Positions 46,712 to 51,889 of a stretch of 64,000 nucleotides of DNA are shown one piece after another. The translations under genes and the position numbers were made by a program. The stretch is from Terriglobia bacterium (GTDB lineage: Bacteria > Acidobacteriota > Terriglobia > Terriglobales > Acidobacteriaceae), in assembly GCA_020073215.1 (NCBI GenBank), contig JAIQFO010000010.1, forward strand, positions 62,001 through 126,000. The letters are read 5' to 3'. Positions within the stretch are counted from its first letter, which is position 1; each line of letters begins with the position of its first letter. The notes below the pieces were generated by a model. That model worked only from the letters and a program-made list of their open reading frames with translations, was not told the DNA's origin and made no database searches.

Positions 46712-48970
46712 ATGGCGCAACTGCGAGTGGTCGTTCTGTGGCACCAGCACCAGCCGTTCTACAAAGACCTGGTGACCGGGCAGTACCGCCTGCCTTGGAC
46801 GCGCCTCCATGCCCTGAAAGACTATTACGGCATGGTGAAGTTGCTGGACGAGTTCCCGCGAGTCCATCAGACGTTCAATCTGGTGCCCTCACTGATCACG
46901 CAGATTCAAGACTATGCGTCGGGCGAGGCCCACGATCCTTTTCTCGAGGTCGCGGCCAAACCCGCCAAAGACCTCACTCGCGAAGAGCGCCAGTTCGCGC
47001 TGCAATATTTGTTTCAGGCGAATCCGGTGAATGTGATCGGACGCTATCCCCGCTACCGTGAGTTGTGGGAGCGATTTCACCTCGCGGGCGGAGCGCCCGA
47101 GCGCGCGGAAAAATATTTTCAGGCCCAGGATTTCACCGACTTGCAAGTGCTCTCGCAGATCGGCTGGTTCGACGAATATTTTCTGGCCGAGAAAGACGTT
47201 GCCGAATTGGTCCGCAAAGGCCGGAACTATACGCTCGAAGACCAGCAGTTTGTGATTGCGCGGGAGCGCGACCTGCTCAACCGGGTTCTGCCGGTTCATG
47301 CTGAGGCCGCCAAGAAAGGCGCGATCGAGATCTCGACCTCGCCCTTTTATCATCCCATTCTGCCGCTGGTGTGCGACACGCAGATGGGAGCGGTTTCCAC
47401 CCCGGGTCTGCCTATGCCGCAGAACCGCTATCGCCATCCCGAAGACGCTCGCGAGCAATTGCAGCGCGGACTGGATCTGCACGAAGAAGTGTTTGGCATG
47501 AGGCCGCGCGGCGTGTGGCCGTCGGAGGGCAGCGTTTCCGAGGAGGCCTTGGCCATCGCCCACCAACTGGGAGTGCAGTGGATGGCGACCGACGAGGGCG
47601 TGCTGATCCGAAGCCTGGGGACCAGTTTTTCACGCGATGGTTATGGCCACTTGGATTCGGAATCGGCAGGGCGGCTGTACACCATTTATCGTTACGAAAA
47701 CGGCAATACGCGGATGAATCTGCTCTTCCGCGATCACGCGCTCTCCGACTTGATCGGATTTGTGTATTCGGGAATGCCGCCGCGGGAGGCTGCGATTAAC
47801 CTCGTCCACAAGATTAAGGAAGCCGCGCAGCCGGTTCTCGCAAAGGGACAAGATGCCGTGCTCTCGATCATTCTCGACGGCGAGAACGCCTGGGAGTATT
47901 ACCCGCAGTCGGGGCGGGAATTCTTGCGCAGATTCTACGAGGGCTTGCAGACCGATCCGGAGATCGAAGCGGTCACGGTGTCGGAGGCGATTGCCCGCCA
48001 CAAGAACGTCAGTCCTCTGAAGTCGTTGGTGCCGGGCTCGTGGATTGGAGCCAACTTCAACGTTTGGATTGGAGCGCCGGAAGACAACAAGGCCTGGGAC
48101 TACCTCTATCACGCCCGTAATTTCTACGCCCAGCGGTCCCCGGACGCGACCGAGAAGCAACGCAAGCTAGCGCTAGAAGATATCTTGATCGCCGAGGGCA
48201 GCGACTGGAATTGGTGGTACGGACCCGAACACCACAGCGCCAACGATCGCGACTTTGACGAACTCTACCGCAAACACCTGTCGAATGTTTACCAGGTGCT
48301 GGGTGGAATTCCGCCGGATTATCTGGCCCAGCCGATCAGCGGAGCAGTGGCGCGGCCAACGTTTGCGCCGCAGAGCGCCTATATCCATCCCCAGGTCTCA
48401 GGCGACGTGGTCCGCTACTTCGAATGGCTGGGCGCGGCGTGTTACACGGCGGACCAGCGCTCGGGCTCGATGCACGGCAAACAGTTTATGACTGATGAAG
48501 TGCTTGCCGGGATCGACGAGCAGTATGTCTACGGCCGCTTGGATTTCCTGGGCAAAGTTCCGGAAGGCGCATTCGAGGTGGTGGTGAACCTGGAGTCGTG
48601 GGCCAACCATGCCGCCAAGCCCCGGCGCGAACTGCGGTTGGATGCGGCCGTCGATGCCGGCCGCTTGCAGTCGTGGAAAGTGACCGAGGGGGCCGGCAAG
48701 GCAGTCGCCGATTCGACCGACACCAAGGATCTGGCGCGGGTGGCGCTGGTCCGCAATTTTGAATTTCGCCTCCCCCTCACCTGGCTGCTCGCCGCTCCAC
48801 TGGCGATTGATAAAGTTCGCGGTCCGGCGAGCTCCGATGTCCTGACCACGCGCCTGCGTTTGCGGTTCAGTCTCTGGCAGAACCATCTGCCCGTGGATGC
48901 ATTGCCCGTGGAAGGATGGATCGAACTGGAGTTGCTGGCGGAAGAAGATTTGCAAGCCGTAAGCGGGTGA
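46712..48970 (+). CDS. Glycoside hydrolase family 57 protein
   Basis: A 752-residue GH57 enzyme. Conserved regions are visible: WHQHQPFY (residues 10-17), the His-rich metal/substrate motif; GVWPSEGSVSEEAL near 270 with the presumed nucleophile Glu; and SIILDGENAWEYY near 389 with the presumed acid/base Asp. A C-terminal domain (about 560-752) contains the usual beta-rich extension. Characterised GH57 members cut alpha-glucans (amylase, amylopullulanase, 4-alpha-glucanotransferase) or branch glycogen. No signal peptide is seen, so it acts in the cytosol, probably on glycogen or maltodextrin. No glycogen gene is adjacent. Confidence 0.9.
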   Translation: MAQLRVVVLWHQHQPFYKDLVTGQYRLPWTRLHALKDYYGMVKLLDEFPRVHQTFNLVPSLITQIQDYASGEAHDPFLEVAAKPAKDLTREERQFALQYLFQANPVNVIGRYPRYRELWERFHLAGGAPERAEKYFQAQDFTDLQVLSQIGWFDEYFLAEKDVAELVRKGRNYTLEDQQFVIARERDLLNRVLPVHAEAAKKGAIEISTSPFYHPILPLVCDTQMGAVSTPGLPMPQNRYRHPEDAREQLQRGLDLHEEVFGMRPRGVWPSEGSVSEEALAIAHQLGVQWMATDEGVLIRSLGTSFSRDGYGHLDSESAGRLYTIYRYENGNTRMNLLFRDHALSDLIGFVYSGMPPREAAINLVHKIKEAAQPVLAKGQDAVLSIILDGENAWEYYPQSGREFLRRFYEGLQTDPEIEAVTVSEAIARHKNVSPLKSLVPGSWIGANFNVWIGAPEDNKAWDYLYHARNFYAQRSPDATEKQRKLALEDILIAEGSDWNWWYGPEHHSANDRDFDELYRKHLSNVYQVLGGIPPDYLAQPISGAVARPTFAPQSAYIHPQVSGDVVRYFEWLGAACYTADQRSGSMHGKQFMTDEVLAGIDEQYVYGRLDFLGKVPEGAFEVVVNLESWANHAAKPRRELRLDAAVDAGRLQSWKVTEGAGKAVADSTDTKDLARVALVRNFEFRLPLTWLLAAPLAIDKVRGPASSDVLTTRLRLRFSLWQNHLPVDALPVEGWIELELLAEEDLQAVSG

Positions 48971-49219: not shown

Positions 49220-49843
49220 CTATTGCCCGCCGCTCGCTGTGGTCATGGTCAAGGGGCGATTCAACTCCATCACCAGCTCTGTGCCGGCCGGAAGCATCGC
49301 AGCCCGGTGCTTGCTGAGCCAGTGCGCAACGGTCACGGTAGCCCCGATGGCTCCGCCGATGATCAAGCCTTTGCCGCCGCCCGCCAGACCGCCGAGAAGC
49401 ATTCCACCTCCCGTGCCGATGCCGATTTCAGTCAGATCCCTTCCATCGTGGCCATCTCCTTTGAACTGACCCTCGGTGTTGACGTCGGTGCCCAGGCGCC
49501 GGTTCGTGTCAACCAGCGATGCGTTAAACATGAACCTGTCTCCATTCGGAAGGATCAGGTGTTCCGGAAAGATGCCGATGGTGGGCTTGCCGGCAATGCG
49601 GCGGGGTTGGGTCGTTTTGGTGACCCGGCCCTCGACGGTCGAGCCGATGGGAATTACCGTCTTGCCTCCCACTACGACCGGCTCCGTCACTCTGGCAGAG
49701 AACGAATCTCCAGCTTTCGAACTGAAGGTTGCGAGCGTGGTTTCCAGTTTCATCTTGACGGCAGTGCCAGGGGGAAGAGCAGTTTGTCCCCACGCGAAAC
49801 CTGCCAGCAGGATGAGCGATGTCAGCGAAAGTGTCTTTTTCAT
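49220..49843 (-). CDS. Secreted glycine-rich hypothetical protein
   Basis: A 207-residue exported protein. The signal peptide MKKTLSLTSLILLAGFAWGQ precedes a beta-rich domain (PPGTAVKMKLETTLATFSSK; GKTVIPIGSTVEGRVT; RFMFNASLVDTN), a glycine-rich segment that could insert into a membrane (about 145-175), and a C-terminal PAGTELVMELNRPL that repeats the theme of the N-terminus. Similar proteins are common in Acidobacteria and have no known function. It lies 38 bases downstream of the selenoprotein-like gene on the same strand and could be co-transcribed with it. Confidence 0.75.
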   Translation of the reverse strand: MKKTLSLTSLILLAGFAWGQTALPPGTAVKMKLETTLATFSSKAGDSFSARVTEPVVVGGKTVIPIGSTVEGRVTKTTQPRRIAGKPTIGIFPEHLILPNGDRFMFNASLVDTNRRLGTDVNTEGQFKGDGHDGRDLTEIGIGTGGGMLLGGLAGGGKGLIIGGAIGATVTVAHWLSKHRAAMLPAGTELVMELNRPLTMTTASGGQ

Positions 49844-49881: not shown

Positions 49882-50376
49882 TCAGACTCCGTGCAAAGCC
49901 CCAAGAACCTCATCGAGTGGCGCACGGTCGAGTTGGTTTGAGCCGCGATAGATGTAGCGGACTATGCCGCCGCGATCGATGACGACCGTAGCCGGGTGCG
50001 CGATGTTGAGCGCGTCAGTGCCCAGCGCGTGATGGAGCCCGTAGGCTTTGGTTACCGCCCGATCCTCATCGAGCAGAAACACGCTGGAGACGGGATGCTT
50101 CTCCAGAAATTTTCCCGGTTTCCAGATGCCATCCCGCTTTTCGGCGGCGATGAACACCAACTTCGCTCCCGTTGCCTCAATTTCCGGCCTCCGCGACTCG
50201 ACCTGAGTCATACGCTTCACGCAGTTCGGTCACCAGGTGCCCCGCAGAAACTCAAGAATCAGCGTGCCCTGCGCCAGCAAGCCAGCGAGAGTGAATGGGC
50301 CCTCACGGTTGGCCGCCGTCAGAGAAAAATCCGGGGCGCGCGAGCCGACCTCCAAAGTTTCGGTGCGGTTCTTCAT
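49882..50376 (-). CDS. Candidate selenocysteine-containing peroxiredoxin-like protein (UxxC)
   Basis: If the in-frame TGA at 50232-50230 is read as selenocysteine, the frame encodes 164 residues of an AhpC/TSA-like thioredoxin fold. Before the TGA: MKNRTETLEVGSRAPDFSLT, then LILEFLRGTW; directly after it: PNCVKRMTQVE. The TGA is codon 49 and occupies exactly the first position of the CPNC-type motif, giving UPNC with Cys52 as resolving residue. The rest fits the fold (AKLVFIAAEKRDG; VFLLDEDRAVTKAYGL; HPATVVIDRGGIVRYIYRG). The ATG at 50376 fixes the start; conventional callers would begin at GTG 50220 and lose the active site. A SECIS-like hairpin follows the TGA. Alternative: pseudogene by a Cys-to-stop mutation. 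Confidence 0.8.
50192..50232 (-). promoter_or_regulatory. Candidate bacterial SECIS element with its UGA
   Basis: On the minus strand the UGA (50232-50230) is followed after 25 bases by the apical loop AGGTC, closed by GACTC (50209-50205) and GAGTC (50199-50195). A U.G pair, two unpaired bases and two more pairs (CG with CG, 50214-50213 and 50193-50192) extend the stem. Bacterial SECIS elements need a stem-loop about 16-37 bases after UGA with G in the first loop positions. The E. coli fdhF SECIS, from memory, has the loop AGGUCU and a bulged U in the 5' arm. Confidence 0.7.

Positions 50377-50566: not shown

Positions 50567-51889
<1,323 letters not shown>

Follow-up and report, generated by a model that had tools for sequence, protein, structure and literature searches.

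Introduction

Redoxin-like selenoproteins have been predicted before: in the available passages of the published surveys, a 'Redoxin family protein' of Pfam family PF08534 with a UxxC motif (U denoting selenocysteine, Sec) is tabled as a predicted selenoprotein with HEU0032618.1 as its representative (PMC13188914), the Prx-like 3 group of the Global Ocean Sampling (GOS) study combines pfam08534 and UxxC with an E-value above 0.001 to pfam08534 (PMC2398784), and a Prx-like thiol:disulfide oxidoreductase with PF00578 and UxxC is represented by WP_010940744.1 (PMC1794560, PMC13188914). Here we describe a gene on the minus strand (positions 50376 to 49882) of a 64,000-nucleotide stretch of DNA, hereafter the window, from the Terriglobia bacterium assembly GCA_020073215.1 (contig JAIQFO010000010.1, positions 62,001 to 126,000), which is very probably an unannotated selenoprotein gene with a bacterial selenocysteine insertion sequence (bSECIS), a redoxin-family product and Sec predicted at residue 49. 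This reading follows from the frame itself, from the conserved TGA within it, from the paired hairpin behind the TGA and from the sel gene set of the same genome; together with an enrichment of selB among TGA carriers, these lines support the first-pass annotation of the window, which had proposed a hidden selenoprotein.

With the tabled redoxin selenoprotein the window protein shares the PF08534 domain (82.4 bits against a cut-off of 26.6, E 3.6e-23, residues 10-158 of the read-through protein) and the arrangement U49-P-N-C52, the likeness to HEU0032618.1 being one of Pfam family and UxxC placement only; since PF08534 with UxxC is already tabled in the available part of that source (PMC13188914), the gene belongs to a known predicted kind. 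The E-value above 0.001 that the passages of PMC2398784 give for Prx-like 3 differs from the 3.6e-23 of the window protein. In case of the PF00578 group, the domain (68.9 bits, residues 10-142, over the cut-off), the UxxC motif and the predicted chemistry are shared, whereas the best Pfam match of the window protein is PF08534; WP_010940744.1 was compared by its description in these sources only. The SelL-related model NF040769 gave a partial match (residues 28-118, E 2.3e-12) and was rejected as an identity at 46.9 bits, far under its curated cut-off of 120. ResA, DsbE and TlpA have a WCxxC-type site in common with the window protein and appear among its NCBIfam matches, all below cut-off, with ResA and DsbE also among its matches in the PDB; in contrast to these proteins, inspection by eye reveals neither a signal peptide nor a membrane anchor in the window protein, and to judge from its sequence the product would be cytosolic.

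The new part is the orthologue group beside the enolase gene eno, with its repeated switches between Sec and Cys. An acidobacterial group beside eno is not mentioned in the passages seen of PMC13188914 and PMC2398784, and the titles and abstract openings of part of the literature matches gave no description of the acidobacterial gene, of its placement next to eno or of a link between Cys and the hairpin motif described below. In the excerpts available, four selenoproteins from three families are counted for Acidobacteria (PMC1794560) and three known selenoprotein genes for Occallatibacter riparius (PMC12013277), and the window gene could be among those counted.

A conserved in-frame UGA in a redoxin gene

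Translation of the minus strand confirmed a frame of 165 codons from the ATG at 50376 to the stop at 49884-49882 that is open except for a single internal stop, the TGA of codon 49 (50230..50232), in the context RGTW*PNC. On the evidence of this frame, of the two Pfam domains and of the orthologues, the complete coding frame (49882..50376) would encode a redoxin of 164 residues including Sec49, the predicted Sec of a W-U-P-N-C site; in the query protein P0001 the terminal TGA, too, was translated, as residue 165. The conserved redoxin domain is found on both sides of the in-frame UGA. For this frame, the mechanical list of open reading frames (ORFs) gives only the part after the TGA: a truncated 112-residue ORF (49882..50220, minus strand) that starts at GTG 50220, lacks residues 1-52 and is the form that a standard caller would report. 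The earlier claim that gene callers start at this GTG and lose the active site is borne out by the databases: among the best 120 of 3117 homologues in the large protein set, to which all database figures below refer, 70 are shorter than 130 residues and start at or past residue 53, meaning that this redox enzyme is often stored without its active site. The other 50 are long, and at the Sec column 47 of them carry Cys and three carry Trp (P0010, P0015 and P0028).

At E 1e-10, 53 of 101 genomes (the window's own and 100 relatives) have a match, many weaker matches being paralogues. At E 1e-20 the gene was found in 54 of 300 genomes of the same family, and a sample of 79 genera from one bacterial family has it in 29. 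The TGA stands at this column in 53 of the 54 family carriers, a number made up of 52 genomes with one TGA inside the match and G024, where the TGA lies in a separate piece that is frameshifted in its assembly; the remaining carrier, G129, has TGC. A sample of the class yielded 18 carriers among 299 genomes at E 1e-25; 16 of these have TGA, and the other two, G090 and G097, have TGT. Taken over 63 loci, the active-site codon is TGA in 56, TGC in two (one gene fetched twice) and TGT in two, and is broken or missed in three. Locus L087 of G129 is the same gene as L056. Those relatives that bear names are metagenome-assembled genomes labelled Acidobacteriaceae, Terriglobales, Terriglobia or Acidobacteria, several of them from bog, palsa and fen, which places the window most likely in the Terriglobales of the Acidobacteriota.

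Alignment A1 holds 55 TGA rows from 55 genomes (one duplicate dropped), ungapped over 54 columns; 53 rows come from the family of the window, and L093 and L094 from a different family within the class. The TGA is aligned at the same codon in all 55 rows, which agrees with the first-pass view that a stop on the active-site codon is not a matter of chance; homologues carry either TGA or, in the long database proteins, mostly Cys at this column, as had been anticipated. Codons both before and after the TGA are under purifying selection: for the 40 codons upstream, the ratio of non-synonymous to synonymous substitution rates (dN/dS) is 0.11-0.26 in 10/10 genus relatives, and from codon 62 on it is 0.10-0.16 in seven of the ten. 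The three other downstream comparisons gave 0.59, 0.29 and one saturated estimate; the first two values belong to L021 and L024, which carry a net insertion and are misaligned by a script that works without gaps, so that these values are unreliable. Loss of the TGA from close relatives together with decay of the gene, named beforehand as what would speak against a selenoprotein, was not observed: the TGA is kept and the gene shows no decay.

Selenium-insertion machinery

The genome from which the window comes (G000; 97.98% complete, 5.65% contamination) holds the sel gene set for which the first-pass annotation had advised a search, and each component exceeds its curated cut-off: selB with 380 bits (cut-off 242.25), tRNA-Sec (selC) with 72.4 bits (cut-off 47) and the anticodon TCA assigned by ARAGORN, selA with 536.2 bits together with its neighbours (cut-off 267.9) and selD with 355.4 bits together with its neighbours (cut-off 125). 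With both selB and selC present, the absence that would have spoken against Sec insertion does not apply. The selD gene (L061, G000:C30:1150-1791, minus strand) itself has a TGA within its frame; the surrounding G[U]ASK fits the UxxK motif listed for selenophosphate synthetase in the available part of PMC13188914, and selD is likely a second selenoprotein of this genome.

Among the 300 family genomes, selB was detected at E 1e-60 in 143, comprising 45 of the 52 carriers with the TGA inside the match vs 98 of the 248 other genomes (Fisher p 4e-10, a value that ignores relatedness). As to the genomes with Cys in the active site, G129 has no selB (best match 96.5 bits), and its tRNA-Sec match is weak at 50.2 bits and may be left over from a former use of Sec; G090 and G097 do possess both selB and tRNA-Sec.

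A conserved hairpin downstream of the UGA

Behind the UGA lies a predicted SECIS hairpin (50194..50210, minus strand) with a 5-bp core GACUC/GAGUC (50209-50195), an outer U-G pair, a 5-nt loop AGGUC and 25 nt between UGA and loop. In the available excerpt of PMC13188914, the bSECIS model has a loop of 3-9 nt with a G within its first two positions, an upper stem of 4-16 bp, a spacing of 16-37 nt from the UGA and an energy of -7.5 kcal/mol or lower; loop, stem (5-6 bp) and spacing of the window hairpin all lie within these ranges. The hairpin was singled out by the alignment and not by folding the window alone: over the 55 rows 95.8% of the cells in its six pairs are paired, as compared to 21-42% when the partner is slid by 1-3 columns, 15 cells are changed on both sides, two pairs show two-sided changes, and none of 500 shuffles reaches the percentage paired, the 15 two-sided cells or the covariation score. 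Pair 25-37 occurs as GC in 28, GU in 14 and AU in 13 rows and never as A-C, and pair 27-35 as UA in 48, CG in two and C-A in five rows. The consensus fold of the 55 rows, with the hairpin included, has an energy of -8.5 kcal/mol.

Synonymous recoding served as a control: all five core pairs are present in 50 of 55 rows, while 500 recodings have them in 4.07 rows on average and in 10 at most, and when any such 5-bp hairpin in the allowed range is counted, the 50 rows compare with 15.8 on average and 27 at most (200 recodings). Codon choice within the hairpin is close to fixed, with CAG for Gln58 in 54/54, GAG for Glu60 in 53/53, GCT or GCC for Ala57 in 41/41 and CGC for Arg55 in 49/53 cases. 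In another family, f4, the five core pairs were read by eye in 8/8 loci, two of which are also in A1, and two f4 proteins with the hairpin are only 38-39% identical to the window protein. A second helix of 3 bp before the hairpin (50211-50223, minus strand; A1 columns 10-12 with 20-22) is a tentative candidate, being paired in 95.8% of cells and showing no two-sided changes. A search with Rfam at gathering thresholds returned no match in the window, which is uninformative for bacterial SECIS elements.

The conserved hairpin likely acts as a SECIS element that recruits the selenium machinery. In such a scheme, SelD would make selenophosphate, SelA would turn seryl-tRNA(Sec) into Sec-tRNA(Sec), and SelB-GTP bound to the hairpin some 20 nt downstream of the UGA would deliver the tRNA, with its anticodon UCA, to the UGA.

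Active site and predicted chemistry

The structure model of the protein (predicted local distance difference test score, pLDDT, of 91.6) has peroxiredoxins as its closest folds, and predicted structure and fold searches agree on a peroxiredoxin fold; the VIA-align and Foldseek lists consist mainly of peroxiredoxins and do not thereby exclude thioredoxin-like families. True peroxiredoxins have the motif PxxxT/SxxC. In alignments to AhpE of M. tuberculosis and to a PrxQ/BCP protein, their Cys corresponds to Cys52 (50221..50223, minus strand; TGC in 55/55 rows) and Sec49 falls on their Thr/Ser, with Arg45 at the position of the Pro; Pro128, invariant in alignment A2, is aligned with R116 of AhpE, which we take to be the catalytic Arg. 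The PxxxTxxC motif and the catalytic Arg of PrxQ/BCP and AhpE proteins (3hjp, 5epf, 2cx3, 4x0x, 1xvw) are hence not kept in the window protein. The first-pass annotation had placed the UGA at the peroxidatic cysteine: while its selenoprotein reading and its point that gene callers lose the active site are supported, this assignment has to be corrected, as the column of the peroxidatic Cys is that of Cys52. In A2, residue 49 is invariant and Cys52 only nearly so.

With Thr, Pro and Arg of the peroxidases replaced by Sec49, Arg45 and Pro128, the active site looks thioredoxin-like. Within a peroxiredoxin fold carrying a thioredoxin-like W-U-P-N-C site, Sec49 would be the attacking nucleophile and Cys52 the predicted resolving thiol, and the resulting Sec-S bond would be recycled by a thiol reductant; judged from sequence, the reaction is most likely thiol-disulfide or general peroxide reduction. 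In the part of PMC1914089 available, the Sec of TXXU and that of UXXC occupy different places in homologous motifs. If the predicted chemistry is true, the protein offers a test case of a peroxiredoxin fold turned into a thioredoxin-type selenoenzyme.

Switching between Sec and Cys

In a tree of 108 rows the Sec label changes nine times, compared to 36.4 in shuffles, and well supported branches force at least six Sec/Cys switches; the tree is rooted at its midpoint, its long branches are uncertain and its bootstrap had not converged. Cys rows are nested in Sec groups, P0002 and P0003 adjoining the window gene, which suggests repeated change from Sec to Cys. The database rows with Cys are known by their letters only, and a U in a source record may have been stored as C, making single switches unsure.

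Residues 57-61, encoded by the hairpin, fit the motif [TA]Q.E[SP] in 51 of 55 TGA rows vs 2 of 47 Cys proteins. Presence of the motif in the TGA rows and its loss from most Cys homologues indicate that the protein motif follows the RNA, although the Cys proteins are on average more distant, which may account for part of the loss. Thr57 occurs only together with Ser61 (13/13 rows), and both rows with Gly60 bear the matching change in the other arm. We consider it somewhat probable, on balance, that the gene represents an old selenoredoxin of Acidobacteriota of the Terriglobales type, situated beside enolase and missed by annotation, whose protein sequence is partly set by the SECIS RNA, with residues 57-61 of the active-site helix held by base pairing. 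In this view lineages that turned to Cys were freed from this constraint, and the active site is a hybrid: a peroxiredoxin fold in which Arg, Sec and a thioredoxin-type Pro take the places of the Pro, Thr and Arg of the peroxidases. With at least six switches and the unequal distribution of the motif, the group is a natural experiment in which the cost to the protein of an in-frame SECIS could be measured.

Weighing of alternative explanations

Several observations weigh against the readings given above. Seven TGA carriers have no selB at E 1e-60 (G016, G051, G058, G133, G139, G154 and G214); in G016 selB exceeds the cut-off once its pieces are joined, and tRNA-Sec is over its cut-off in the other six, but in G051, G133, G154 and G214 nothing passes the selB cut-off: their matches, of 191-198 bits, cover the first half of the selB model, and we take them to be EF-Tu. 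Assembly gaps or a diverged SelB may account for the missing selB of these four genomes. No tRNA-Sec was found at E 1e-8 in the TGA carriers G016 and G024. In G000 the sel genes lie on contigs other than that of the window, in an assembly with 5.65% contamination, a worry that is tempered by the presence of selB in genomes of the same genus. As to the hairpin, two of five covariation measures lie within the range of the shuffles: 83/500 shuffles attain the observed count of pairs with two-sided changes, and 500/500 that of pair types. One core pair is C-A in 5/55 rows, and codon deficits extend beyond the hairpin, milder ones being seen at e.g. residues 39 and 92 (the codon comparison past the 54 columns of A1 was made without gaps). 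The window hairpin alone reaches -6.4 kcal/mol, compared to -7.5 in the published model as excerpted, the free 44-nt fold has its minimum of -11.1 kcal/mol in a different structure, and folding 55 nt that take in the UGA gives a z of -0.81. Finally, the chemistry was assigned from alignment.

The most serious alternative, though an unlikely one, is that the product is a selenoprotein and a true peroxidase, Cys52 being peroxidatic and Sec49 merely assisting or resolving: the alignment of Cys52 with the peroxidatic Cys of AhpE is what such an enzyme would show, but neither the Pro and Thr of PxxxTxxC nor the catalytic Arg is retained, and it is residue 49 that A2 shows as invariant. That the frame is a pseudogene or a sequencing error, the TGA having arisen by nonsense mutation or by misreading of a Cys codon in a Cys redoxin that is either decaying or ordinary, could draw on the Cys of 47 of the 50 long homologues and on the TGC of G129; the same TGA in 55 independent genomes, purifying selection on both sides and the hairpin after the TGA make this the least credible explanation of all, and by its conservation it is already refuted for the orthologue group. 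Mechanical and database calls do give the short form, yet it is highly improbable that the true gene is the 112-residue ORF from GTG 50220 behind an untranslated relic, given the upstream dN/dS of 0.11-0.26 in all ten comparisons and the fact that the first strands of the fold lie upstream and both active-site residues are absent from the short form. Scarcely more can be said for decoding of the UGA as Trp or another residue, through suppression or a different genetic code: Trp does occur at the Sec column in three database rows, but their Trp probably stems from a TGA translated under a different code, as two of them group with the TGA gene L068 in the tree, and Cys predominates among the long homologues while the genome holds the Sec tRNA and SelB. 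Pseudogene, truncated ORF and Trp read-through were accordingly all rejected, and a redoxin with Sec49 encoded by the UGA is the preferred reading.

Genomic neighbours and paralogues

The gene is flanked by the divergently placed enolase gene eno (50588..51889, plus strand; Enolase_N and Enolase_C), which lies beside it in 55 of 71 loci, and downstream by the gene of a 207-residue protein without Pfam match (49220..49843, minus strand), found near it in 50 of the loci; a glycoside hydrolase 57 (GH57) protein (46712-48970, plus strand) is near it in 34. Many flanks among these 71 loci are short and some loci were fetched twice.

All 11 of the weaker matches fetched with an internal TGA (L097-L107, from G045, G064, G094, G013, G027, G018, G036 twice, G028, G038 and G070) are other redoxin paralogues, 27-37% identical to the window protein, and show the TGA in W-TGA-P-x-C; the order thus probably holds further UxxC selenoredoxins.
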